DNA from: an uncultured Alphaproteobacteria bacterium
GTDB lineage: Bacteria; Pseudomonadota; Alphaproteobacteria; Micropepsales; Micropepsaceae
Reading direction: 5' to 3'
DNA length: 36,291 nucleotides
Assembly (NCBI GenBank): GCA_903837555.1
Contig: CAILUV010000021.1
Span: forward strand, 1 to 36,291
Every line of letters starts with the position of its first letter. The first letter of the stretch is position 1. Of this stretch, positions 4,767-22,841 are shown one piece after another. The position numbers and the translations under genes are program-made. A model generated the notes under the pieces. That model saw nothing but the letters and a program-made list of their open reading frames with translations. It was not told the DNA's origin and did not search any database.

Positions 4767-5797
4767 TGCGCCGGGCAGCGCTTGCGGCTTTGCTGTGGGC
4801 GCTGACTTCGCCCGCTTTCGCGCAACCGGGCACCGCGCCTGCGCGCGAACTGGACAAGACACCCCATGTGGTGATCGGCAATGGCCTCATTTCGGCGCGG
4901 GTACATCCGCCGGGCGAAAAGTCGCTCTACAAGGGCACGCGCTTCGATCATTCCGGCGTGCTAGCGCATATTACCTATCGCGGCCAGAATTACACCGACT
5001 ACTGGTTCGATCGGTATGTCATCGACCCACGTGATACGAGCCGCCAGCCGGCGGGCACTGTCACTGCCTGCTGCGCCGTCAGCGGGCCGGTCGAGGAGTT
5101 CGCCATTGTCGGCTTTGAAGAGGCTGGCATGGGCGGGCGTATCTTCAAACCCGGCATCGGCATCTTCACACGCGACAGCGACAACCCGCTGCAATTCCCC
5201 ACCCTGCCCGCGCTGAACCAGGGCACGCGCAGCTTCACGTCCAGCAAGACCGGCGCCCGGTTCGTGCATGACCTGAACGACACGGCGTCGGGATATGGCT
5301 ATCACTATACCAAGACGGTGGAGCTGGTGGCGGGCAAGCCGCAGATGACCATGGCGCATGAGATGAAGAATACGGGCGCCAAGCCCATCGTCACCACGGT
5401 CTATAACCACAACTTCCTGACGCTCAGCCCCGGCAGCGAACATCTGGTGATTACCGCCCCCTTCAACTGGTCGGCGGAAAAGCCGTTGCAGCCCGATCTG
5501 GTGAAACTGGACGGCAAGACCATCCGCTATATCGCGCCGATCCCGCCGGGCGTCACCACCATGAGCCTGATGAATGGCTTCGGCAAAAGCGCGTCCGATT
5601 ACGACTTCACCGTCACCAACAGCAAGACGGGTTTTGGCCAGCGCATTCGCGGCGACCAACCCATCGCCAAGATCAACATGTGGTCGATCCATACCAATTA
5701 CAGCCTGGAGCCTTACATCGCCATTTCGCTCAAGCCGGGCGAGACCAAGCGCTGGACGTACACCTATGACTTTTATGGACCGGGGGAAAAGCCATGA
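4766..5797 (+). CDS. Exported mutarotase-fold protein, tandem copy 2
   Basis: The 343-residue paralogue of the preceding gene starts at an ATG that shares one base with the previous stop (TGATG), so the two are translationally coupled. It opens with a signal peptide, MRRAALAALLWALTSPAFAQ. It then repeats the family blocks: LYKGTRFDHSGVLA, GPVEEFAIVGFEEAGMGGR, TVYNHNFLTLSPGSE (candidate catalytic His) and SLEPYIAISLKPGETKRWTY. An insert around YVIDPRDTSRQPAGTVTACC has two adjacent cysteines absent from the other copies, a possible site of disulphide or metal chemistry. A mutarotase or sugar-binding role in the periplasm is inferred from fold-level similarity only. Confidence 0.77.
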   Translation: MRRAALAALLWALTSPAFAQPGTAPARELDKTPHVVIGNGLISARVHPPGEKSLYKGTRFDHSGVLAHITYRGQNYTDYWFDRYVIDPRDTSRQPAGTVTACCAVSGPVEEFAIVGFEEAGMGGRIFKPGIGIFTRDSDNPLQFPTLPALNQGTRSFTSSKTGARFVHDLNDTASGYGYHYTKTVELVAGKPQMTMAHEMKNTGAKPIVTTVYNHNFLTLSPGSEHLVITAPFNWSAEKPLQPDLVKLDGKTIRYIAPIPPGVTTMSLMNGFGKSASDYDFTVTNSKTGFGQRIRGDQPIAKINMWSIHTNYSLEPYIAISLKPGETKRWTYTYDFYGPGEKP

Positions 5798-6858
5798 AGA
5801 CATTTGCGATTGCGGGATTGATCCTGACCGGCACGGTTGCCGCCGTGTATGCGCAGGGCAGCGCGCCGTTCGACCTACCGCCGGCGAACAGCACCAGCCC
5901 GGCCACCGCTTTGGATGACCTGCCCTCGCGTACCATTTCCAACGGCATCGTCAGCGCCAAGGTCTATCTGCCGGGCAAGTTCGGTTTCTACCGCGCCACT
6001 CGGTTCGACCATGCCGGCATGATTACCCATGTCACCTATAAGGGGCATGACTATGGCCGCTACTGGTTCGCCAAGACCTCCCCCAATGTGCGCAACTTTA
6101 CCTATGACGCAGACGGAGTGGTGGCGCACAACAACAACAGCGCTGCCGGGCCGGTAGAGGAATTCGGCGAAAATGGCTTCGACTATGCGGGACGCGGCGG
6201 GCGATTCCTGAAGATCGGCGTCGGCATCCTTCAGCGCGACAACGATACCTACAACCGCTTCCACACCTATCCGATCCTGAACGAAGGCAGGCGCAGCACG
6301 CGGGTGACCGCAAACAGCATCCGCTTCACCCAGGATGTGTCGGGCGATCCGTCGGGCTACGGCTACAGCCACAGCAAGACCGTCACCATGGTGCCGGGCA
6401 AGCCGCAGATGACCATCGAAGTGCGGCTTAAGAACACCGGCAGGAAGCCCATCGACACAACGGTCTACAACCACCATTTCACGACCCTGAGCCCCGGCAA
6501 CGAGGCGATCGAGCTGGTGGCGCCCTTCAAGCTGGTCAACGCCCGGCCGATGCCCAATGACGTCATCAAGATCGACGGCGCGCGCATGACCTATCTGCGC
6601 GGCATGACGGGCCAGGAACAGATCGCCAGCGACCTCACCGGCTGGGGCGACAGCGCCAGCGACAATGACTTCCGCATCACCAACACCAAGACCGGTTATG
6701 GCCTGCGCCTGCGCGCCGACCTGCCGATCGCGCGGCTGTTGTGGTGGTCGATCCCCACCACACTAAGCCTGGAGCCCTATATGGCGATCAAGCTGGCGCC
6801 GGGCGAGGAAAAGCGCTGGACTCACACGCTGGATTATTACGGCCCTGGCGATAACTAA
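5794..6858 (+). CDS. Exported mutarotase-fold protein, tandem copy 3
   Basis: The third paralogue, 354 residues, overlaps copy 2 by 4 nt (ATGA). It has a signal peptide, MKTFAIAGLILTGTVAAVYA. It shares the blocks FYRATRFDHAGMITHVTYKG, GPVEEFGENGFDYAGRGGRF, GDPSGYGYSHSKTVTMVPGK, TVYNHHFTTLSPGNE and SLEPYMAIKLAPGEEKRWTH with the other two copies. Candidate catalytic His and Glu are kept, so the copy does not look decayed. It closes the operon and is followed by a small hairpin and then the tRNA-Thr promoter. Divergence among the three copies suggests old duplication and possibly different sugar specificities. Confidence 0.77.
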   Translation: MKTFAIAGLILTGTVAAVYAQGSAPFDLPPANSTSPATALDDLPSRTISNGIVSAKVYLPGKFGFYRATRFDHAGMITHVTYKGHDYGRYWFAKTSPNVRNFTYDADGVVAHNNNSAAGPVEEFGENGFDYAGRGGRFLKIGVGILQRDNDTYNRFHTYPILNEGRRSTRVTANSIRFTQDVSGDPSGYGYSHSKTVTMVPGKPQMTIEVRLKNTGRKPIDTTVYNHHFTTLSPGNEAIELVAPFKLVNARPMPNDVIKIDGARMTYLRGMTGQEQIASDLTGWGDSASDNDFRITNTKTGYGLRLRADLPIARLLWWSIPTTLSLEPYMAIKLAPGEEKRWTHTLDYYGPGDN

Positions 6859-6865
6859 AATCGCC
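6847..6865 (+). terminator. Short hairpin at the end of the mutarotase operon
   Basis: GGCGAT (6847-6852) and ATCGCC (6860-6865) form a perfect 6-bp stem around a 7-nt loop that contains the TAA stop codon. No T-run follows, so it is at best a weak terminator or an mRNA 3'-end stabiliser. Confidence 0.25.
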
Positions 6866-6882
6866 GTCACCGCAGCCGGAAC

Positions 6883-6911
6883 TTGCCATTAACGGGCGCT
6901 GTGGCTAATTG
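6883..6911 (+). promoter_or_regulatory. Sigma-70-type promoter of tRNA-Thr
   Basis: TTGCCA (6883-6888) and TAATTG (6906-6911) are separated by exactly 17 nt and end 12 nt before the first base of the tRNA. This is the geometry expected for a housekeeping promoter with a start site at or just before the mature 5' end. Confidence 0.6.
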
Positions 6912-6923
6912 CTTCGCAAGCGG

Positions 6924-6999
<76 letters not shown>

Positions 7000-7018
7000 T
7001 TTCCCGCAGATCCCGAAA

Positions 7019-7768
7019 CTATTTCGCGTCAGGGCCAGGCAACGCGACCGTCTGATGCTCGATATGCGCGATCAGGTCGGGAGGCAGCTGGAGCCGATGC
7101 GCCAACGCTTCCAGATAGGCCGTTTCCGCCGGGTGGTCGGGATCTATGGCGAGCCGCGCGGCAAGATAGATTTCCGCCGCCTGTTCCGGCCCTTTTGCGA
7201 AGGCGACAATCTCGCTCAGGGGAATGGTCCGCGCCAAGGCATCAAAGATGAAGGCCTTGCTTTCGGCATCCAGCGTCAACGCACCCATCTTCTCGAAGAT
7301 CGAGGCTTGCTCTTCGGGGCCGATGTGACCGTCGGCCTTCGCGGCCGCGATCATCGTCAGCACCAGTCCGAGCGTGAATGGCTTGCCATCAGCGCCGGGC
7401 GCCGCCAAGGATTGCGCGGCCTGTGTGACATCAGTCGGCGTGGCCATTGGCGCTTGAGACGCGGATTTTCCCTCCTGCCAGTTCTGATAAGCGCGGTGGG
7501 CCAAGGCGCCAAGCACGGCGGCGCCGCCATAGCCAACCACGCCGCCGGCCATTTTTCGCACCTTCTTGCTGCCGACCAGCAGGCCCAATAATCCACCCGC
7601 GGCCATGCCGCCCCCGAATCCACCCATGGGGCCGCTGGTGAGTGTTCCCGCGGCGCCGCGCAGTTTATCCAAGGGGCCTGCATCGCCTTGCGGCGCGGAG
7701 TTTTGTCCGCCGAGGGGCGACGGGCCACCGGCACCTAGAAACTGCTCAAGCAAACGCTGCGGGTCCAT
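7019..7768 (-). CDS. DUF533 / TerB-like protein (YebE family)
   Basis: The 249-residue protein has a low-complexity Gly/Pro N-terminus (MDPQRLLEQFLGAGGPSPLG). A glycine-zipper-like segment follows, including GGMAAGGLLGLLVGSKKVRK and a hydrophobic GYGGAAVLGALAHRAYQNWQ. The C-terminal helical domain from about residue 130 begins LGLVLTMIAAAKADGHIGPE, the typical opening of TerB/DUF533 domains with its acidic metal-binding-like D-G-x-I-x-x-E pattern. The family is linked to inner-membrane association and, in part, tellurite resistance, but its biochemical function is not known. The ATG at 7768 has a weak AGAGAG ribosome-binding site. Confidence 0.85.
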   Translation of the reverse strand: MDPQRLLEQFLGAGGPSPLGGQNSAPQGDAGPLDKLRGAAGTLTSGPMGGFGGGMAAGGLLGLLVGSKKVRKMAGGVVGYGGAAVLGALAHRAYQNWQEGKSASQAPMATPTDVTQAAQSLAAPGADGKPFTLGLVLTMIAAAKADGHIGPEEQASIFEKMGALTLDAESKAFIFDALARTIPLSEIVAFAKGPEQAAEIYLAARLAIDPDHPAETAYLEALAHRLQLPPDLIAHIEHQTVALPGPDAK

Positions 7769-7880
7769 TCAAACTCTCTAGTGGCTGGTTTCGCTCAAGG
7801 TCAGAAAACAGCCATGCGAAAACGGCGCAATCATGGCGAGAATCCAGTGCTGGAAGCCTGCAAGCGCGGCGCGGCGACCA

Positions 7881-10805
7881 TCACGCCAGATGCGCTGCCA
7901 GCAGGCTGGCGACGTGCACCGCCTTGCGGTCGGCGCCATCCTCGATCTGGTGGCGGCAGGACGTGCCATCGGCCACCAGCACCGTATCGGCATCGGCCTT
8001 GCGCGCGGCAGGAAGCAACGACAGCTCGCCCATCGCCAGGGACATGTCTGCGGTTTCCGACTGATAGCCGAAGGCCCCCGCCATGCCGCAACAACTCGAT
8101 TCGATCTTCTCCAGCGTCAGGCCGGGGATCAGCTTGAGGGCTTCTTCCACCGGCCCCATCGCCCCGAATGCCTTCTGGTGACAATGGCCGTGCAACATGG
8201 CTTTAGACTTCGCCGGTTGCAGGTTCGGCTTGAACCTTCCCGCCTTCGCCTCGCGGGCGATGAACTCCTCGAACAGCAGGGCATGGGCCGCAGCGCGTTT
8301 GCTGTCCGCGCCCGGCAACATGGCGATGGCCTCGTCGCGAAAGGAGAACAGGCAGCTCGGCTCCAGCCCCACCAGCGGCACGCCGCGCGCGAAGAACGGC
8401 GCCAGCGCGGCCAGTGTGCGTGTCATCTCGGCTTTCGCCGCCTCCACATTGCCGACCGCCAGATAGGTACGCCCGCAGCACAGTGAACGCGATGAGCCAT
8501 CCGCCGGCGCGGCCAGATGCACGCGGTAACCGGCACTGGTCAGAACCTTGATGGCGTCGCGCAGGATTTCCGGCTCGAAGGCCGCATTGAAGCTGTCGGC
8601 CCACAGCACGACTTCGTGACCAGTTTCGGGACCAAAGCTGGCGCCGCGCTCATCGAACCGGTCGCTGCGCCACAGCGGCAGATCGCGCTTGGCGCTGAAC
8701 CCCATCAGGACTTCGGACAGCCAGCGTAAAAATCCGCTGCGGTTGCGCAGGTTCAGCAGCGGCGCGGCCTTGGCGGCCAATGGCGCATAGCGCGGCAAAT
8801 GGGCGATCAGCCGGTCGCGCAGGCTGTAGCCGCGCTCCTTCGCCCGCGCCGACAGCACTTCGATCTTCATCCGCGCCATGTCCACGCCGGTGGGACATTC
8901 GCGCTTGCAGGCCTTGCAGGAGACGCAAAGCTGCATGGTCTCCATCATCTCGTCGGAGGTAAACGCCCCGGCCCCCAACTGGCCGGACACCGCCAGCCTG
9001 AGCGTGTTGGCGCGGCCGCGCGTGACATGCTGTTCGTCGCGCGTGACACGGTAAGACGGACACATTGCCCCGCCTTCGGATTTGCGGCAGGCGCCATTGT
9101 TGTTGCACTGCTCGGCCGCGCCCTGGAAGCCGCCGATCGCGCCGGGATATTCCGACCAGTCCAGCGCCGGCTTGAAATCCTGCACCTCGTAGTCAGGCGC
9201 ATAGCGAAACAGGCTGCGCTCATCAAATTTGGGACTGCGCACGATCTTGCCGGGATTCATCGTGCCTTGCGGATCGAATGTGTCCTTGACCTCTTCGAAC
9301 GCCGCAATCAGGCGCGGCCCGAACATGTCTTCGTGGAATTCGCTGCGCACCAGCCCGTCGCCATGCTCGCCCGAATGTGAGCCCTTGTACTGGCGCACCA
9401 GTTCGAAGGCTTCCTCGGCAATGGCGCGCATCGCCTTGACGTCTTTTTCCAGCCGCAGATTCAAAACCGGGCGCACATGCAGGCAACCTTCGCTGGCATG
9501 GGCATACCAGGTGCCGCGCGTGCCGTTGCGTTCGAAACATTCGGTCAGCTTGGCCGTATACTCCGCCAGGTGCGGCAGCGGCACGGCGCAGTCTTCCACG
9601 AAAGAGATCGGCTTGGCCTGCTCCTTCATCGACATCATGATGTTGAGGCCGGACTTGCGCAGCTCGGTGATGGCGTTCTGCAGCGCCGGGTCATAAACCT
9701 CGACCACCCCACCCCACTTGGCGCCGCCATGCGAGAAATCCACGCCCAGATCACCCATCATCTGGGAAAGCGCAGCCATGCGGCGATGGTTTTCTTCCTC
9801 GCCGGAATCGAACTCCACCAGCAGGATCGCACGGGGCTTGCCGCGCAACATCGCTTCCAGCGTGGCGTGGAACAGCGGTATCTCCGCCGCCAACCCCAGC
9901 ATGGTGTCATCGACCAACTCGACCGCGATGGGCTTGAGCGTCACCAGGTGCTGGGCGGCATCCATCGCGGCATGGAACGAACCGAAATGGCAGACGCCCA
10001 GCGCGCGCTTGCCCAGAACCGGCGACAGTTGCAGCTTGATGGCGGTGGAATAGGCCAGCGTGCCTTCCGATCCCACCAGCAGATGCGCCAGGTTGATGCG
10101 GTTGTGGCGCGGGTTCATCGCGTCGATGTTGTAGCCGCCGACCCGGCGATGCACCTTGGGGAAACGGGATTCCACCTCGCCCGCTTCGCGCGTGCCGATG
10201 GCCATCAGTTTCTGCGCCAGTGGCCGCAGCGCGGAGTCGACATCCGACAGGTCGGGTGCAACTTCGCCAAAATGGTGGGCGCTGCCATCGGCCAGCACCG
10301 CATCAATGGTCAGCACATTGGCGCGCATGGTGCCGTAGCGGATGGAACGGCCGCCGCAACTGTTGTTGGCGGTCATGCCACCAATGGTCGCGCGCGACGC
10401 CGTGGAAACGTCGACCGGAAACCACAGGCCATGCGGCTTCAACTGGCGATTGAGATCGTCCAGCACGATGCCGGGCTCCACCGTCACGGTGCGGCCTTCC
10501 ACATCCAGCGACAAGATGCGGTTGAGATGCTTGGAGCCGTCGATGATGAGGCCCGCATTGACAGTCTGTCCGCACTGGCTGGTGCCACCACCCCGCGCGG
10601 TGACGGCAAGCCCCTCTTCGCGCGCCAGCGCCAATGCGGTCACCGCGCTGTCCATGCTGCGCGGCACAACAACGCCCGCCGGCATGATCTGATAGTGAGA
10701 GGCATCCGTCGCGTAACGGCCGCGCGAAAAGGCGTCGAACAGCACGTCGCCGGAGACATGGGCTTTCAGCCGCCTTTCAAGGCCCGGATGCGCGGCAAAT
10801 GCCAT
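7881..10805 (-). CDS. FAD- and Fe-S-containing D-2-hydroxyacid dehydrogenase (YdiJ/GlcD-GlcF-like fusion)
   Basis: The 974-residue protein joins a GlcD-like flavin half to a GlcF-like iron-sulphur half. The PCMH-type FAD domain (about residues 40-200) includes VTARGGGTSQCGQTVNAGL and GGMTANNSCGGRSIRYGT. An FAD-oxidase C-terminal domain follows, with HSGEHGDGLVRSEF. The Fe-S region has CNNNGACRKSEGGAMCPSYR and CVSCKACKRECP. Two CCG-type repeats end the chain (LCCGRTYLAVG and ESSCCGMAGAFG, with HGHCHQKAFG between them). Such proteins oxidise D-2-hydroxyacids (lactate, 2-hydroxyglutarate, glycolate) and pass electrons to the respiratory chain. The divergent aminotransferase and carrier suggest a hydroxy-acid or glyoxylate pathway, but the substrate is not determined. 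The start ATG has only a weak ribosome-binding site. Confidence 0.9.
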   Translation of the reverse strand: MAFAAHPGLERRLKAHVSGDVLFDAFSRGRYATDASHYQIMPAGVVVPRSMDSAVTALALAREEGLAVTARGGGTSQCGQTVNAGLIIDGSKHLNRILSLDVEGRTVTVEPGIVLDDLNRQLKPHGLWFPVDVSTASRATIGGMTANNSCGGRSIRYGTMRANVLTIDAVLADGSAHHFGEVAPDLSDVDSALRPLAQKLMAIGTREAGEVESRFPKVHRRVGGYNIDAMNPRHNRINLAHLLVGSEGTLAYSTAIKLQLSPVLGKRALGVCHFGSFHAAMDAAQHLVTLKPIAVELVDDTMLGLAAEIPLFHATLEAMLRGKPRAILLVEFDSGEEENHRRMAALSQMMGDLGVDFSHGGAKWGGVVEVYDPALQNAITELRKSGLNIMMSMKEQAKPISFVEDCAVPLPHLAEYTAKLTECFERNGTRGTWYAHASEGCLHVRPVLNLRLEKDVKAMRAIAEEAFELVRQYKGSHSGEHGDGLVRSEFHEDMFGPRLIAAFEEVKDTFDPQGTMNPGKIVRSPKFDERSLFRYAPDYEVQDFKPALDWSEYPGAIGGFQGAAEQCNNNGACRKSEGGAMCPSYRVTRDEQHVTRGRANTLRLAVSGQLGAGAFTSDEMMETMQLCVSCKACKRECPTGVDMARMKIEVLSARAKERGYSLRDRLIAHLPRYAPLAAKAAPLLNLRNRSGFLRWLSEVLMGFSAKRDLPLWRSDRFDERGASFGPETGHEVVLWADSFNAAFEPEILRDAIKVLTSAGYRVHLAAPADGSSRSLCCGRTYLAVGNVEAAKAEMTRTLAALAPFFARGVPLVGLEPSCLFSFRDEAIAMLPGADSKRAAAHALLFEEFIAREAKAGRFKPNLQPAKSKAMLHGHCHQKAFGAMGPVEEALKLIPGLTLEKIESSCCGMAGAFGYQSETADMSLAMGELSLLPAARKADADTVLVADGTSCRHQIEDGADRKAVHVASLLAAHLA

Positions 10806-15326: not shown

Positions 15327-16010
15327 TTAGGTCTCCAGAATGGTGTTGGGCAACCGGTTCTTTGGCGCGCCCGTGGGCGGGAAATGCTGCGCCAGCGCCG
15401 CGCCGCATATCTCGATGGCCTTGACGAAACCATCGGCGGGTTTACCCGCTGACATGGCGTCAGTCACCGCCGCGATGGCCGCGTTCCACGGCCCCTCGCC
15501 CACGATCTGGTGAATGTTGGAATGCGCCACCAGCTCAACCTTGCGGTCGCGGAAGGACGCGAAGATCAGCACATGGGGTTCGTCCTTGGAAAGCCGCGCG
15601 CCAGCCGAAGCAAAATGCCGTCGAGCCGCCTGCCGTACCCGGTAGCGCTTGAGCGCGGGCGGCGTCAGGGCGCTGCGCACGCCCGGCAACGCCACAATGA
15701 TCGCCACGATCAGGAAGACGCCCAGTTGCAGGATCGCATAGGTGGTCAGGCCGCGCAGGATCAGCTCCTGCATGGCGCGGGCGGAATCTTCCGTCCAGCT
15801 TGAAAAGATGCTGGCCAGCGCCAGCCGCTCCAGAAAAATCAGCACCAGGATAGGCGGCAGAACGAACGCGGCCAGCGCCGCCCACAACAGCGGCACCTCG
15901 CGGTAGCGCGATACCTGCCGCGTCAACACGCAGAAAATTTCACCGGCGGTTTTGCTTTCGGCCCCCGCAATCGCCGCCGCGATACGTTCTTGATCGGCTT
16001 TCGTCAGCAT
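15327..16010 (-). CDS. TPM-domain membrane protein
   Basis: The 227-residue protein begins MLTKADQERIAAAIAGAESK, followed by TAGEIFCVLTRQVSRYREV, the start of the TPM (TLP18.3/Psb32/MOLO-1) fold. Two membrane helices are visible, around PLLWAALAAFVLPPILVLIF and LQLGVFLIVAIIVALPGV. The domain resumes with DEPHVLIFASFRDRKVELVA and GPWNAAIAAVTDAM. TPM proteins often sit beside LemA and a YgcG-type TPM protein, as here; a common function in envelope maintenance is suspected, not shown. The ATG at 16010 lies 1 nt after the upstream stop. The frame stays open to 16187, but that extension is low-complexity Ala and a shadow of the Gly-rich tail of the upstream gene. Confidence 0.85.
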   Translation of the reverse strand: MLTKADQERIAAAIAGAESKTAGEIFCVLTRQVSRYREVPLLWAALAAFVLPPILVLIFLERLALASIFSSWTEDSARAMQELILRGLTTYAILQLGVFLIVAIIVALPGVRSALTPPALKRYRVRQAARRHFASAGARLSKDEPHVLIFASFRDRKVELVAHSNIHQIVGEGPWNAAIAAVTDAMSAGKPADGFVKAIEICGAALAQHFPPTGAPKNRLPNTILET

Positions 16011-16011
16011 C

Positions 16012-16764
16012 TCACCATCTCCCCGAAGCACCGCCGCCGCCAAAGCCGCCGCCGCCACCGCCAAAACCACCGCCACCAAAGCCGCCGCGACCACCGCCGC
16101 CGCCCCAGCCGCCACCGCCGTAATAGGGTCCGCCACCGCCGCCACGTCGTCCCGGATGGGCCCAGGACTGGTAGAACATGAAGCCAAACACCCCCAGGAT
16201 CAGGAGCATCGCCAGCCAGTCGGGTATTTCGTCCTGCTGGCTGCCGCGCTGCTTGGCCGCCGCAGCGGCGCGGGCCTCGGCTTCCGAGCGTTCCAGCGAC
16301 AGTTGCTGGATCAGCGCCGCCGTTCCGGCCTGCACACCGGCTTCCATATTTCCCTGCCGGAAGTTCGGCAGCACCTGGCTCTGGATGATCACCGAAGACA
16401 GTGCGTCGGTCAGGATCGGTTCCAGCCCATAGCCAACCTCGACGCGCACGGCGCGCTCCTGGGGCGCGATGATGAACAGCGCGCCATTGTTCAGCTTCTT
16501 CTGGCCGATGCCCCAGGCGCGGCCCAGCTGATAGCCATAGTCGGAAATCTCATAGCCCTGCAGCGATGCCAGCGTCACCACCACAAGCTGGCGCGAGGTG
16601 CCCGCCTCCAGCGCCGCCAGCTTCTGGGTCAGATCGGCTTCAACCGTCGGCGAAAGAATATTGGCCTGATCCACCACCCGCCCGGTCAGCGCCGGGAAAG
16701 TCGGCGCCGCCGCGACGGGTGTTATCAGAAGGAATAGCGCGGCAAGCGCCGCAAGAAACCGCAT
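16012..16764 (-). CDS. YgcG-family TPM-domain protein with Gly-rich tail
   Basis: The 250-residue protein has a signal peptide (FLAALAALFLLITPVAAAPT). A TPM domain follows with FPALTGRVVDQANILSP, RQLVVVTLASLQGYEISDYG and NGALFIIAPQERAVRVEVGY, the canonical blocks of YgcG-like proteins. A single C-terminal membrane helix (DWLAMLLILGVFGFMFYQSW) precedes a glycine-rich tail of about 45 residues with GGGG and GGFGGGG units. Most of the protein should face the periplasm with the tail on the cytoplasmic side. It follows lemA by 6 nt and precedes a second TPM gene by 1 nt, forming a lemA-TPM-TPM operon. Function is unknown. Confidence 0.9.
   Translation of the reverse strand: MRFLAALAALFLLITPVAAAPTFPALTGRVVDQANILSPTVEADLTQKLAALEAGTSRQLVVVTLASLQGYEISDYGYQLGRAWGIGQKKLNNGALFIIAPQERAVRVEVGYGLEPILTDALSSVIIQSQVLPNFRQGNMEAGVQAGTAALIQQLSLERSEAEARAAAAAKQRGSQQDEIPDWLAMLLILGVFGFMFYQSWAHPGRRGGGGGPYYGGGGWGGGGGRGGFGGGGFGGGGGGFGGGGASGRW
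16021..16150. repeat. GC-rich low-complexity tract encoding the Gly-rich tail
   Basis: Runs of CCGCCA/CCGCCG triplets on the + strand encode the Gly-rich C-terminus of the TPM protein on the minus strand. The tract opens an artificial long Ala-rich reading frame in another phase and is prone to length change by slippage. Confidence 0.7.
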
Positions 16765-16770
16765 CGGGCG

Positions 16771-17421
16771 TTACGGTTTCGCCGTGCCGGGTTGCGCCGC
16801 TTCGGGTGCGGGGGCCGCCGCGCCGGGGAAGCTGACCACCGGCGCATTCTGCGCGGCCGCGGATGCTGCAAACAGCATCGCCTGCTTGTAGGAGCGATAG
16901 AAGGTCGCCGCCCACAGCGAACCGGGGATGGTCACCAGCTCGGTGTTATAATCCTGCACCGCCGCATTATAGTCCCGGCGCGCAATCTCGATCCTGTTCT
17001 CGGTGCCTTCCAGTTGCGACTGCAACGCCAGAAAATTCTGGTTGGATTTCAGGTCGGGGTATCTTTCGCTGATCATCATCAGCCGGCCCAGAACGCCAGA
17101 AAGCTGGTCCTGCGCCTGCTGAAAACGCTCGAACGCGGCCGGATCGGTGATGGTGGACGCATCGATGGTGACACGGGTCGCATTGGCGCGCGCTTCGGTC
17201 ACCGCGATCAGCACGGATTTTTCCTGCGCGGCATAGCCCTGCACGGTGGCGACCAGATTGGGGATCAGATCGGCGCGGCGCTGATAGGTGCCCTGCACAT
17301 TCGCCCAAGAGGCCTTCACCGCCTGGTCCTTGGTGGGGATGTTGTTGACGCCGCAGCCGGCCAGAACCATGGCCACGCCGATGGCTGCCAGCAGCTTCGG
17401 CACCGTTCTCAAAATCGTCAT
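16771..17421 (-). CDS. lemA: LemA-family lipoprotein
   Basis: The 216-residue protein starts MTILRTVPKLLAAIGVAMVL and then LAGCGVNN, a lipobox with Cys as the likely lipidated residue. The LemA coiled-coil core follows: VKASWANVQGTYQRRADLIP, NLVATVQGYAAQEKSVLIAV, YPDLKSNQNFLALQSQLEGT and RRDYNAAVQDYNT. The tail is Ala/Pro-rich. LemA proteins are membrane-anchored helical bundles of unclear function. The ATG at 17421 is chosen for its signal sequence and a GAGGGTG ribosome-binding site; the frame is open 31 codons further, but that extension would bury the lipobox. It heads the lemA-TPM-TPM operon. Confidence 0.92.
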   Translation of the reverse strand: MTILRTVPKLLAAIGVAMVLAGCGVNNIPTKDQAVKASWANVQGTYQRRADLIPNLVATVQGYAAQEKSVLIAVTEARANATRVTIDASTITDPAAFERFQQAQDQLSGVLGRLMMISERYPDLKSNQNFLALQSQLEGTENRIEIARRDYNAAVQDYNTELVTIPGSLWAATFYRSYKQAMLFAASAAAQNAPVVSFPGAAAPAPEAAQPGTAKP

Positions 17422-17517
17422 GGGCGCACCCTCAAATATCCGGGGCGAAAGATGGGCTAAGCCCGTCCAACCGCAAGGGATAAATTGGACATGGCCGGAC
17501 TTGATTTTCGGCAACAG

Positions 17518-18969
17518 CTAATTACGCGGCGCCGGGGCGTTGCGGATCGCGGAGGTCTTGACCGGCGCCCCCTTGGCCTGGGCTTCGGCCAGCAGCGGGC
17601 GGCAATTGGCGTCTTCCGCCAGGCCGGGATCGATAAATGCGAAGATGGCAGCCAGCGGCGACAGGAATCCCAGCGCCGCCGCGATGCCGCCCTGCGCAAT
17701 GATCTCGCCTGCGTCCACGCCAATCACCGGCGCCTCCCAGCGCCCCTGCACCGTGATGGGCGCGCGCAGGCGCACGAGCTGGAAATTCTTGGGCTTGCCC
17801 TGGACGCGCAGGTTCAGCGTTTCCTGCCGCATGTTGATGAAGCCGCCGCCTTCGATGCGCACCGGATCGGTGTCGATCAGGAAGCGTTGCGAGGTCAAAA
17901 GGCCATTCTTGGCCGTGAAAGACGCCACGGCACAGCGCAACGGCACGTTGGAATTGTTGCCGCTGAGATTGAGGCTGAGCGCGGTCAGCGCATTCACCCC
18001 GGTCCATTGCGCCAGGCTGTGACGCATGCCGCCGGTCGGCACCACGGCAATGACGGTGCCATTGGCGGTAGACGCTGCTGCATGGGGCGAATTGCCGATG
18101 CCGGTCAGGACCGCGCGCGCCGCCGACACGCTCCAGCGATAGGCTGCGGCGGAATCTTCACCGATCGTCGCACCGCGCAGATAGGCCACCGCCAGCGCGG
18201 TCTGGGCACGCGCATCGCCCACATCGGCCAGTGCGATGGTGCGCGCCAAGCCCGCGGGCGCGAGCTTGCGCGGCGTCGTGCCGCTGCCGGCCAGATCGGC
18301 GGCGGTCGCGCGGGCGGTATCGCCCAGCATCAGCCCGGCGCACAGAAACAGCGCCGCCAGCGACAGAACCCCGATGGCCAGCCAGCGAAGCCGCGCATGG
18401 CCGCGCGGCGCGGCCTCTTCCGGCACAAACCGGGTTTTGCCCCGCGCGGCCTGAAGCACATCCGCCATTTCCGACCGCGACAGCAATGGCGCGCAAGGCT
18501 GCTTCAGTGGCGGCAACAGCGGCATGGCCTGGCGTGCCACGGCCGGCTCGACGGCCGCGACCGACTCGGACGGCGGTTCGGGCGCAGGCGGAGCCGGTTC
18601 GCTGGCATCATTTGCTTCGCGCGATCCCAGCGACGAACGTTTTTCTTCCAGCGCTGCAATCACGCCCGACTGATCACGGGCGCCCGCGTCAACCCGCGCC
18701 TCCAGCGCATTCAGGGCACGTTCGAACACCCGCAGCCGGCGTTCCAGCCAGGCATCGGGCGCCGCCACGACCGGCTCGGCGGGCTCAGGCGTCATCAGCG
18801 CCGCGAGCAGCGCCGCCTTGCCGCCGAAATGCGCGCGGAAGACATCGCGCGTCACCCCGGCTTCGGCGCACAGCAGGGCGATGGAGAATTTGTTGTCGCC
18901 CCGCGCCAGTATCGTCCGCGCGCTGGCCAGCAGCCTTGTCCTGTCGTCGGCCTGATCGTTTTCGCCCAT
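17518..18969 (-). CDS. Fusion protein: TetR-type HTH, membrane helix, Sel1-like repeat, AsmA C-terminal domain
   Basis: Four parts are visible in one uninterrupted 483-residue frame. Residues 9-60 form a TetR N-terminal DNA-binding domain (ARTILARGDNKFSIALLCAE, then AGVTRDVFRAHFGGKAALLA). A Pro/Ala-rich linker follows. One membrane helix spans about 194-215 (LRWLAIGVLSLAALFLCAGL) after a basic stretch, predicting cytoplasmic N-terminus and periplasmic C-terminus. Residues 248-286 resemble one Sel1 repeat (GDARAQTALAVAYLRG). Residues 298-458 match the C-terminal domain of AsmA proteins: LRCAVASFTAKNGLL, RIEGGGFINMRQETLNLRVQ, GKPKNFQLVRLRAPITVQGR and GLAEDANC. It may be a membrane-bound regulator sensing the envelope, or a deletion fusion of two genes. 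ATG 18969 (GGGAG site) is preferred over GTG 18990. Confidence 0.72.
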   Translation of the reverse strand: MGENDQADDRTRLLASARTILARGDNKFSIALLCAEAGVTRDVFRAHFGGKAALLAALMTPEPAEPVVAAPDAWLERRLRVFERALNALEARVDAGARDQSGVIAALEEKRSSLGSREANDASEPAPPAPEPPSESVAAVEPAVARQAMPLLPPLKQPCAPLLSRSEMADVLQAARGKTRFVPEEAAPRGHARLRWLAIGVLSLAALFLCAGLMLGDTARATAADLAGSGTTPRKLAPAGLARTIALADVGDARAQTALAVAYLRGATIGEDSAAAYRWSVSAARAVLTGIGNSPHAAASTANGTVIAVVPTGGMRHSLAQWTGVNALTALSLNLSGNNSNVPLRCAVASFTAKNGLLTSQRFLIDTDPVRIEGGGFINMRQETLNLRVQGKPKNFQLVRLRAPITVQGRWEAPVIGVDAGEIIAQGGIAAALGFLSPLAAIFAFIDPGLAEDANCRPLLAEAQAKGAPVKTSAIRNAPAPRN

Positions 18970-19086
18970 GTGCCCCACTCCCTGCGGCACAGGTTACGCA
19001 CAGCCCGTTACCATCGCGGTTCCGCAAAAGGCGCAATTCAAGGACAAATTTAAGCGACCTTTAGGCGCCAGCCCGCCCGTCAGGAT

Positions 19087-20580
19087 CTAGCCCTTGCCGC
19101 GCCGTCCGTACAGCAACGTCACGTTGATGCGGCGGTTTTCATAGCCGTCCTTGAACCGGATGGTGTCGGTTTCATGGAACAGGTCGGAATCGAAAATCAC
19201 CGCCCGGTTGGCGCGGTAGGGCACCGTGACCGAGGTGGCGCCGGCGTCTTTGAGGAATTTGCGCGGCGACTCCACATCGCCGTTATACTTGTCGAAATCC
19301 CAGTCCAGCGGCGCGGCCTTATCCCACACCACCAGTCCGCCATGCTCGGGATCGAGGTTGGCCTCGTCCGGCGTGATCCAGAAATTGACGTTCACCGCCG
19401 CCTCATCGGCGTGAATCTTGATGCCGCTCATGCTGGAGTCATACTTGAACGCCCACAGGTAGCGCAGCGGGTGGCCGCCAAAGATGGCCGGAAAAGTGTC
19501 GCGGAATTCATCCGCAATCTGGGCCAGCAGCGGCGCGGCGAAACCATGTTCGGGAAACGCGCCCAGGTAGCCGTCATTATAAGTCTGCCGCCAGACATTG
19601 GAGCCCAGGCAGAAGCGGCGTAGATTGGCCAGCGCCTCGGGCGTCAGCAGGTTATCGATCACCACGAGCTGGTTGTTGCTGGCGCGCCAGTCGGCGGTGA
19701 CTTTCTGCGTGTTGGCTGGATTGATCGCCGGGCCCGCCAGCTTGTCGCCCCCGTCCAGGAAAAGCGGGCCATCTATGCGGGCGCGGCTGCCCAGCCAAGC
19801 CTGTTGCTCGGTATCGTGGCGCAGGCGGTGCGGCGGGGCATCCGCCGGCGCGGCACTGCCCGCGCCGATCGCCTGCTCGGCCGACTGGCGGAACACGACA
19901 AAGCCTTCCACCACCCGATCGCTTTCACACAGCGCATGACCACGATAGTTCAGCAGTTCGGCATTGCCGGGGCGAAACATCAGCGCCCGGTCGAAACTGG
20001 CCAGCGCCTCGTCGAAGCGGCCTAGCACGCGCAAGGTGATGCCGCGGTTCTTCCAGGTTTCGGCATTGTTCGGATTGAGCGCCAGCGCCCGGTCGAAACT
20101 GGCCAGCGCCTCGACCTCGCGCCCCAGCTCATGCAGCGCATTGCCGCGATTGACGAGCGCGCCCTCGTGATCCGGACGCGCCGCCAAAACCTGATCGTAG
20201 CTGGCCACGGCTTCGCCCCCCCGCTTCATCTCGCGCAAGGCATTTGCGCGATTGAACAGCGCGTCCGGGAAACCGGGTCGGACTTTCAGCGCCCGATCAT
20301 AGCTGGCTAGCGCCTCGTCGAAGCGGCACATGTTTTTCAGCACGTTGCCGTAGTTGAGCAGAACTTCGGGCGTATCTGGACTGATCTGCAGGGCCTGGCC
20401 GATCAGGTCCAGCGCCTCGGCATTGCGGCCCTGCTGCGCCCGCACCACGCCCAGAAGATGCAAGGGCGCGAAGCTGCCGGGCGCCGCCGCCAGAAGCTGC
20501 AAGTAAAGCCGCTCAGCGTCCGCCAACTGGCCACGCTGATGCGCCGCCACGGCCTTGGCATGAAGGGAAGACAGGTCCAT
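19087..20580 (-). CDS. TPR protein with C-terminal 2OG-Fe(II) oxygenase domain
   Basis: About seven tetratricopeptide repeats fill residues 1-240, with near-identical units such as RFDEALASYDRALKVRPG and RFDEALASFDRALMFRPG. The C-terminal domain (about 290-497) is a prolyl-hydroxylase-like 2-oxoglutarate/Fe(II) dioxygenase. His390 and Asp392 lie in IKIHADEAAVNVNFWITPDE, distal His469 in FDSDLFHETDTIRF, and Arg483/484 in YENRRINVTLLYGRR binds 2-oxoglutarate. TPRs probably hold a protein or glycan-linked partner while the oxygenase hydroxylates it; the substrate is unknown. No signal peptide is seen. The start ATG at 20580 fits the first TPR. Confidence 0.88.
   Translation of the reverse strand: MDLSSLHAKAVAAHQRGQLADAERLYLQLLAAAPGSFAPLHLLGVVRAQQGRNAEALDLIGQALQISPDTPEVLLNYGNVLKNMCRFDEALASYDRALKVRPGFPDALFNRANALREMKRGGEAVASYDQVLAARPDHEGALVNRGNALHELGREVEALASFDRALALNPNNAETWKNRGITLRVLGRFDEALASFDRALMFRPGNAELLNYRGHALCESDRVVEGFVVFRQSAEQAIGAGSAAPADAPPHRLRHDTEQQAWLGSRARIDGPLFLDGGDKLAGPAINPANTQKVTADWRASNNQLVVIDNLLTPEALANLRRFCLGSNVWRQTYNDGYLGAFPEHGFAAPLLAQIADEFRDTFPAIFGGHPLRYLWAFKYDSSMSGIKIHADEAAVNVNFWITPDEANLDPEHGGLVVWDKAAPLDWDFDKYNGDVESPRKFLKDAGATSVTVPYRANRAVIFDSDLFHETDTIRFKDGYENRRINVTLLYGRRGKG
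19981..20113. repeat. Direct DNA repeats within the TPR region
   Basis: A block of about 30 nt beginning CAGCGCCCGGTCGAAACTGG occurs at 19981 and again at 20083, 102 nt apart, which is exactly one 34-residue TPR. A more diverged copy lies near 20288. Such repeats can gain or lose TPR units by recombination. Confidence 0.7.
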
Positions 20581-20631: not shown

Positions 20632-21252
20632 TCAGTCCGGCTTCAGGGCGCGGGTCAGAAAGCGGGTGAGGTTTTCGACCAGCAGGGCGCGTGAGCGGCC
20701 CGTACGATGGGCTTCGCGGCTGGTCTGGTGCAGCGCGCCTACAATGGCCTGGCCGATAATGCCCGGATCATAGGATCGGCAGGCGCTGCCGTCGCGCGAG
20801 GCTTCGCGCACCATGTCGGCCCACTCCGCGCCCCATTGGGTGAGAAGCGAACGCACTTCGACGCCTTCGGCGTCGATCACCGCCTCATCCGTCATGGCGG
20901 CGCGCAGCACGCCGGGATGATGATCGGAATAATCGTAGATCGCATGCAGCGTGGCCGAAATACGCTGTTCCAGCGTCTGGCCCGGGCGGCGATGGGCGCT
21001 GACATGCGTGTCCAGTTCCACGCGCGCATCTTCGACGAAGGACAAAAAGCAGGCGCGCTTGTCGGGATAGTGCAGATAGAAAGTGCCATGTCCCAACCCC
21101 GCTTCGCGCGCAATGTCCTGCGGACGGGTGCCGTCATAGCCGCGCTCGACAAACAGTTTGCGCGCCGACTGCTTCAAACGGGCAAGGCTTTCCGGTTTCC
21201 GGCGATTGCTGGAAAGCGTTGTAGAATCGAGAATGATAGCGTTACCGGGCAT
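20632..21252 (-). CDS. TetR/AcrR-family transcriptional regulator
   Basis: The 206-residue protein has a standard TetR DNA-binding domain at about residues 22-70: ARLKQSARKLFVERGYDGTR, then PQDIAREAGLGHGTFYLHYP and DKRACFLSFVEDAR. The C-terminal helical ligand domain is variable and does not identify the inducer; RAAMTDEAVIDAEGVEVRSL and a region near GQAIVGALHQTSREA are its clearest helices. It is 51 nt upstream of the TPR-oxygenase gene on the same strand and 76 nt downstream of glpK, but neither spacing proves regulation of a neighbour. No clear operator palindrome was found upstream. Confidence 0.92.
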   Translation of the reverse strand: MPGNAIILDSTTLSSNRRKPESLARLKQSARKLFVERGYDGTRPQDIAREAGLGHGTFYLHYPDKRACFLSFVEDARVELDTHVSAHRRPGQTLEQRISATLHAIYDYSDHHPGVLRAAMTDEAVIDAEGVEVRSLLTQWGAEWADMVREASRDGSACRSYDPGIIGQAIVGALHQTSREAHRTGRSRALLVENLTRFLTRALKPD

Positions 21253-21328: not shown

Positions 21329-22798
21329 TTATTGCACCTGCGTAACGGCGCTTAGCCAACCCTCGTACAGCAGGTCTCGCTGCCCCCGCTTCATTGCGGG
21401 AACAAAGCGCCGGTCCAGCGCCCAGCGCGCGGCGATGTCGCGTTCGCTGCGAAACAGCCCCGCGCCCAAACCCGCCAGATAAGCCGCACCTAGCGCGGTG
21501 GTTTCCGTCACCACCGGGCGATCCACCGGCAGCCCTGTTAGGTCGGCCAGGCGCTGGCAGAACCAGTCATTGGCGACCATGCCGCCATCGACCTTGAGCG
21601 CTCGCAACCGTGAAAGCCCCGCCGCCGCCATGTCGCGGCGCATCGCTTCCAGCAGGTCGCGGGTCTGGTAGCAGACCGCATCCAGCGCGGCGCGGACGAT
21701 CTCCGGCCGGCCGATGTCGCGCGTCAGCCCCAGGATCGCGCCGCGCGCCTGCGGGTTCCAATAAGGCGCGCCCAACCCGGTAAAGGCGGGCACCACGTAA
21801 AGCCCCGGCGCCGGCTTGGCGCGTTTGGCGAGGCTTTCGCTTTCCGGCGCGGTCGCCAGAATGCCCAGCTCGTCGCGCAGCCATTGCACCACTGCACCCG
21901 CCACGAAGATCGAGCCTTCGATCGCATATTGCTTCTGCGCCAGGGCCGTCGCCAAAAGCCGGTTGCGAGAGCGCGGCACCGTCTTGCCGGTATTGACCAG
22001 CGCGAAACAGCCAGTGCCGTAGGTGGACTTCACATCGCCCGGCGCGAAACAAGCCTGGCCGAAACTGGCGGCCTGCTGATCGCCCGCCACCCCCAGGATG
22101 GGAATGGCCGCACCTAGCAGCATGGGATCGGTTTCTCCGAAATCGCCGCGACTCTCGCGCACATCCGGCAGGATGGCGCGCGGCACGCCGAACAGCTTGA
22201 GCAGCGCAGCGTCCCAGTCGCGCGTCTTCAAGTTCCACAACATCGTGCGCGACGCATTGGTGACGTCGGTGGCGTGCACCTGTCCGTGCGTCAAATTCCA
22301 GATCAGCCAACTGTCGATGGTACCAAAGCGAATATCTCGACCTTTAAGCCCCTTCACGTTCTTGAGCAGCCATTCCAGCTTGGTAGCGCTGAAATAGGGA
22401 TCGAGCAGCAAGCCGGTCTTGCGCGTGATCCCGGCTTCCAGTCCGCGTTTCTTCAGCGCCGCGCAGCGTCCTGCGCCGCGCCGGTCCTGCCAGACGATGG
22501 CGTTATAAAGCGGCGCCCCGGTTCGGGCGTCCCAGACCAGCGACGTTTCGCGCTGGTTGGTGATGCCGATGGCGGCCACCTCGCCGGCGTCCCTGCCCTT
22601 CAGCACTGCGTTGGCGCAGGCCAGCGCTGCTTGCCAGATTTCGCGCGGGTCATGCTCGACCCAGCCATTGGCCGGGTAAATCTGGCGCAGCGGCAGCGAA
22701 TGGCTGCGCACCGGACGCCCCTGGGCATCGAACAGGATTGCCCGGGTCGAGGTGGTGCCCTGGTCGAGGGCCAATATGAAGTTTTTGTGCCTACTCAT
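21329..22798 (-). CDS. glpK: Glycerol kinase
   Basis: The 489-residue FGGY-family kinase phosphorylates glycerol to sn-glycerol 3-phosphate. Visible landmarks are ILALDQGTTSTRAILFDAQG (phosphate loop), NGWVEHDPREIWQAALACAN, IGITNQRETSLVWD, NAIVWQDRR, KSTYGTGCFALVNTG and the second FGGY signature near LRALKVDGGMVANDWFCQRL. These match true glycerol kinases over other sugar kinases. ATG 22798 is chosen because MSRHKNFILALDQG fits family N-termini; the TTG at 22831 would add an odd 11-residue extension. Its ribosome-binding site is poor. No glpF or glpD lies nearby. It is divergent from the DUF2336 gene, with a CtrA-type box between them. Confidence 0.95.
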   Translation of the reverse strand: MSRHKNFILALDQGTTSTRAILFDAQGRPVRSHSLPLRQIYPANGWVEHDPREIWQAALACANAVLKGRDAGEVAAIGITNQRETSLVWDARTGAPLYNAIVWQDRRGAGRCAALKKRGLEAGITRKTGLLLDPYFSATKLEWLLKNVKGLKGRDIRFGTIDSWLIWNLTHGQVHATDVTNASRTMLWNLKTRDWDAALLKLFGVPRAILPDVRESRGDFGETDPMLLGAAIPILGVAGDQQAASFGQACFAPGDVKSTYGTGCFALVNTGKTVPRSRNRLLATALAQKQYAIEGSIFVAGAVVQWLRDELGILATAPESESLAKRAKPAPGLYVVPAFTGLGAPYWNPQARGAILGLTRDIGRPEIVRAALDAVCYQTRDLLEAMRRDMAAAGLSRLRALKVDGGMVANDWFCQRLADLTGLPVDRPVVTETTALGAAYLAGLGAGLFRSERDIAARWALDRRFVPAMKRGQRDLLYEGWLSAVTQVQ

Positions 22799-22841
22799 GG
22801 GACGAAAAGGCACACCAGTTCGATGCCCCAAGGCAAGAGAC

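Follow-up and report, generated by a model that had tools for sequence, protein, structure and literature searches.

The window (the whole 36,291-nucleotide stretch of DNA that was analyzed, from an uncultured alphaproteobacterium of the family Micropepsaceae) carries on its minus strand an open reading frame of 483 codons plus stop (17518..18969). The frame is uninterrupted, with no internal stop, as a preliminary description had stated, and an in-frame GTG at position 18990 offers a possible alternative start; a simple scan found no promoter. The parts of the frame and its neighbouring genes listed here also lie on the minus strand. Downstream are a LemA gene (16771..17514) and two TPM domain genes, TPM1 (16012..16764) and TPM2 (15327..16187). 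Upstream are a TPR-repeat gene (19087..20580) with a weak 2OG-oxygenase match under the cut-off, a soluble TetR regulator of ordinary type (20632..21252) and a gene that we take to encode glycerol kinase (glpK, 21329..22831). The window also contains a tRNA gene at 6924-6996 (Rfam RF00005).

Homology divides the frame into two halves. The front half (residues 1-284, 18118..18969) originates from a gene that we call T and contains a TetR helix-turn-helix (HTH), a WLERRLRVFERAL block, a linker, a membrane helix and the start of the first Sel1 repeat. The HTH (residues 15-58, 18796..18927) was recognized by a profile comparison with the PDB and by Pfam TetR_N, with 24 bits against a cut-off of 24 (E 3.2e-5), confirming the proposed TetR-type HTH just at the cut-off. 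The membrane helix (residues 197-215, 18325..18381), assigned by hydropathy only, is the most hydrophobic stretch of the chimera and is preceded by a basic stretch. Because a second, weaker hydrophobic stretch begins at residues 427-429, within the AsmA tail, the single helix of the preliminary description is likely, although short of certain. One truncated Sel1 repeat (residues 253-285, 18115..18213) was identified by homology to T; it scored 12.7 bits in Pfam against a cut-off of 30.7, and the window protein has no tandem Sel1 repeats above the cut-off. The back half (residues 284-483, 17521..18120) corresponds to the C-terminal 200 amino acids of an AsmA gene. Pfam AsmA (PF05170) did not match the window protein, YhdP matched it weakly (E 0.042), no NCBIfam family came close to its cut-off, and TetR_C families matched neither this protein nor 12 T relatives. 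Single-sequence structure prediction gave a mean pLDDT of 37. By Pfam alone, the Sel1-like repeat and the AsmA C-terminal segment proposed earlier lack a significant match, an outcome that the preliminary description had itself named as counting against it; homology confirms both segments.

The front and back of the chimera matched different places in related genomes (21 of 41 had matches, the window's own included). In the fetched loci the front half matched frames of 421-520 amino acids, one 421-residue frame being cut by a contig end, and more weakly frames of 554 and 217. The back half matched the C-terminal end of frames of 570-734 amino acids; it was divided between two frames at locus L048, and at locus L041 it matched a short frame of 62 residues. 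Over residues 5-272 the match is to a T protein that has four Sel1 repeats; residues 284-483 are 74.5% identical to the C-terminus of a protein of about 675 amino acids, encoded by a separate gene, in which Pfam detects AsmA at 5.3e-41. Both parents are present on L043, the alphaproteobacterial MAG contig CANKIV010000029.1 (judged by position, it is also contig G353:C29). There T (6235-7587; four Sel1 repeats with 95 bits, TetR_N with 25 bits) and the AsmA gene (8576-10603; Pfam AsmA 5.3e-41) occupy different reading frames and are separated by a gene on the other strand that we label YihY; its Pfam family is BrkB (PF03631). Identity to the front and back halves of the window protein is 61% and 74% for L043 and 63% and 76% for genome G347, so these two are roughly equally close to the window. 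The TPR-repeat gene is a neighbour of T in both. L043 has a gene between the two at 5576-6100, presumably VOC/glyoxalase-like, that is absent from the window (18990-19087) and from G347 (L099).

The order of these genes was compared across 69 genomes of the genus, with T defined by a match to the HTH-to-helix profile at E 1e-10 or better. T is present in 22 of them, the window's included; in G002 and G343 the match is limited to the profile's first half. Of the other 21 T carriers, 11 (G009, G016, G017, G164, G321, G322, G336, G343, G346, G352 and G353) have T, a convergent YihY and AsmA in one contiguous stretch. LemA and the first TPM gene come next in nine of these 11 stretches; the exceptions are G322, where the contig stops, and G343, where neither was found in the stretch taken. 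G012 and G347 have these neighbours too, divided by contig ends. The order is not universal, since in the remaining eight (G001, G002, G008, G263, G318, G320, G345 and G351) T is separate from AsmA, is close to a contig end or is not accompanied by an AsmA match; G001, G002 and G008 have no AsmA match at all. Second copies of T were seen in G346, G345 and G318.

The AsmA end is also found in 18 of the 21 other T genomes, always in another frame and place than T, and the AsmA C-terminal part occurs in 32 of the 69 genomes, with T in the same frame only in the window. The same domain order in related genomes had been named as a check on the preliminary description, and no second frame with both halves was found among the 69 genus genomes; conservation of the fusion among relatives was therefore rejected. 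The proposed assembly of TetR and AsmA parts into a one-component regulator is not supported by this comparison: the parts are in separate frames in the 18 genomes that have both, the convergent YihY stands between them in 11 of the 18, and the window is that region minus about 2.9 kb. The AsmA gene has an in-frame stop close to its start in G009 (L033:9472-11514), is split into two overlapping frames in G263 (C35:2502-3076), contains a TAG in G342 (C2:797118-797693) and occupies two frames in L048. The gene may be dispensable in these genomes, or the breaks may be sequencing errors.

The window has the same flanks as the intact stretches but lacks YihY, the rear part of T and, from AsmA, the N-terminal 477 amino acids. 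Amino-acid identity to L043 is 84.6-86.8% in the upstream flank (glpK, TetR and the TPR gene) and 78.9-87.3% in the downstream flank (LemA, TPM1 and TPM2), and the missing stretch, measured on L043 from 7114 to 10001, is about 2.9 kb. We consider it probable (roughly 0.8) that the chimera was born of a deletion of this size between T and the AsmA gene. Such a deletion would have ended inside T and inside the AsmA gene, two genes downstream, so that codons 1-284 of T run on in frame into the final 200 codons of AsmA, and two genes that occupy different frames in L043 come to share one. Lost with it would be three of T's Sel1 repeats, the convergent YihY gene and, from AsmA, the anchor together with the first 477 residues. 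The presence of the deletion in a living cell is what we infer from this comparison.

The missing parts were also sought elsewhere in the genome of the window, a draft of 2.46 Mb in 101 contigs that is 98.4% complete. Searches with the N-terminal part of AsmA and with YihY, run without a positive control of their own, gave no match in this genome; Pfam AsmA and BrkB had no match in it either, and matched in all four relatives searched. The back of T found other Sel1 proteins at 27-44% identity, plus the stump itself. Relocation of the missing parts within the genome was rejected, none having been detected. One YhdP-like gene (a frame of 1153 amino acids) is retained; TamB had no match in this genome, nor in G353 and G347, and did match in G016.

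An assembly artefact, in which places 2.9 kb apart were joined and the middle was lost in assembly or binning, would give the same picture. The genome is a draft in 101 contigs, and two contigs of G347 start within YihY (L099:1-448 and the start of L113), so the stretch may be hard to assemble. We nevertheless regard an artefact as unlikely: the window contains no N, the AsmA N-terminal part and YihY are unmatched elsewhere in the genome, the two parts meet in frame, a one-in-three outcome by chance, and the junction shares a few bases at most. A few shared bases are insufficient for a k-mer join. The junction (codons 284-285, 18115..18120) reads GCG CGC (Ala-Arg) and is compatible with both parents in the alignments. 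On the T side, L043 and G347 have GCGCG and the other five T genes shown lack it; on the AsmA side it occurs in five of seven distinct genomes, L043 and G347 not among them. Microhomology at the breakpoints is thus possible, although an identical short repeat at both breakpoints was found in no relative compared. The junction is provisional, being read from the assembly of a single draft genome.

Conservation was compared at columns that are otherwise invariant in T (20 sequences) and AsmA (17 sequences), after five loci (L040, L109, L110, L111 and L112) and all matches that covered less than 85% of the query were left out. The window deviates at one of 62 such columns in both halves together, and at none of the 20 in the front half. 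Window-only deviations in the control genes numbered one in LemA, four in TPM1 (joint highest of 12), none in TetR and nine in glpK (third of six); TPM2, with two sequences only, was uninformative. Third-position GC is 0.79 in the front half and 0.83 in the back half, like that of the neighbours. In a neutral simulation the probability of at most one of 62 columns being changed was 0.08 at 0.03 changes per site and 0.03 at 0.04, so that a history free of constraint could have covered no more than roughly 0.03-0.04 changes per site; by our estimate (half the corrected 4-fold divergence) the branch to L043 is about 0.17-0.31 changes per site. An old pseudogene is unlikely, with no stop and one of 62 invariant columns changed. 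The retention of conserved residues by both halves indicates that the fusion is either young or still in use.

An alternative is a selected domain swap, that is, a working membrane regulator with the AsmA tail in place of the Sel1 part. The frame is in phase and free of stops, the topology is plausible and both halves keep their conserved residues, but a recent fusion alone predicts these residues equally well, the arrangement occurs in a single genome, and the AsmA tail is without the first 477 residues. In relative-rate comparisons window-only amino-acid changes slightly exceeded L043-only changes, in the back half with nine of nine outgroups and in the front half with five of six plus one tie (p<0.05 in two each, the outgroups not being independent). 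The neighbours scatter similarly, with a window-only excess in five of seven comparisons for LemA (p<0.05 in one), five of seven for TPM1, none of five for TPM2 and three of three for TetR, and a tie with the single outgroup of glpK (outgroups again not independent). We consider a selected swap very improbable. Equally improbable is the fuller version in which T is a new membrane-anchored TetR regulator reading the periplasm by its Sel1 part, and the deletion in this lineage put the tail of a lipid-transport protein in the place of that part, leaving a working regulator with a new input domain. Nothing was found in support of envelope sensing through AsmA, as had been suggested. On the deletion reading, the whole chimera is most likely a young by-product of gene loss and not a selected sensor.

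The product of the deletion would be held in the inner membrane by the T helix, its HTH facing the cytoplasm and its AsmA stump the periplasm; the topology given in the preliminary description (HTH inside, AsmA part outside) holds as likely. Proteins of the AsmA family have an N-terminal membrane helix and a long periplasmic beta-rich tube (PMC10900882). The last 200 amino acids of the chimera are orthologous to the end of such a protein (the AsmA-like proteins include AsmA, YhdP and TamB), whereas the N-terminal anchor and the first 477 residues of the parent are absent, and with them the helix and tube. Since the anchor and most of the length are missing, AsmA function is most likely gone.

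The front half at best might still bind DNA at the membrane. It may be, as a tentative reading compatible with the deletion, that it retains the role of T with the AsmA tail as a passenger, and that T is itself a membrane-tethered DNA-binding scaffold and not a transcription regulator; SlmA is a TetR-fold protein that acts in division (PMC3573117). The window protein keeps the invariant residues of the HTH as well as the WLERRLRVFERAL block, with no deviation at the 20 invariant front-half columns. Against this, the Sel1 part is mostly lost.

Intact T, as at L043:6262-7584, consists of a TetR HTH, an invariant WLERRLRVFERAL block, a membrane helix and three to four Sel1 repeats. Pfam detected the repeats (83-119 bits) in all 12 T relatives scanned; TetR_N exceeded its cut-off in only four of these and scored 16-24 bits in the other eight, indicating that the HTH of T is of TetR type and diverged. 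Across nine aligned sequences the D-WLERRLRVFERAL--LE block is more conserved than the HTH. A profile of nine T sequences matched TetR proteins in the PDB (best E 1e-7), and those named, among the matches listed, are TetR-type regulators. In a sample of 289 genomes of the class, four of them of the same genus, with at most nine candidates scored per genome, the profile matched in 116. Among the matches listed from the 285 non-genus genomes none spans the helix; they begin in the HTH region, end at or before position 128 of 247 and are mostly frames of TetR length. T thus shares the TetR_N HTH with the TetR family, and its profile finds TetR-length proteins and TetR crystal structures, but T has the WLERRLRVFERAL block, the linker and the membrane helix, and the soluble helical C-terminal ligand-binding and dimerisation domain of that family was not seen.

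A structure model of T from three sequences (mean pLDDT 62, with the Sel1 part confident and the HTH part at 66-75) is a Sel1 solenoid whose top fold matches are LpnE and LceB. The likeness to the Sel1 proteins LpnE, LceB and HcpC is one of fold and applies to intact T, whereas the window retains about one repeat. PodJ, a membrane protein, has Sel1 repeats in the periplasm and is not known to carry a TetR HTH. In the literature searched, which left most subscription journals outside, no TetR-Sel1 or TetR-AsmA membrane protein was found.

Transmembrane transcription regulators such as ToxR, CadC and TcpP likewise carry, on a single polypeptide, a DNA-binding domain and one or more membrane helices (PMC10269533), and here the HTH differs in being of TetR type. 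TetR, Sel1 and AsmA are absent from the main text of that article, whose supplement of more than 100 DNA-binding domains may include TetR. With a DNA-binding domain and at least one membrane region, the helix by hydropathy only, the window protein fits the criteria in section 5 of PMC10269533; T qualifies under them as a putative transmembrane transcription regulator, and by its sequence looks like a new variety of these.

An eye-catching combination of domains, when seen in a single draft genome, may thus be the scar of a deletion, and gene order in relatives is a quick test for such architectures. The membrane-anchored TetR protein does exist, as intact T, with Sel1 repeats and not AsmA as its outer part. 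The T family is the more interesting item than the fusion and deserves following, as a candidate for membrane-bound TetR regulation that is often found beside the envelope genes YihY, AsmA, LemA and TPM.
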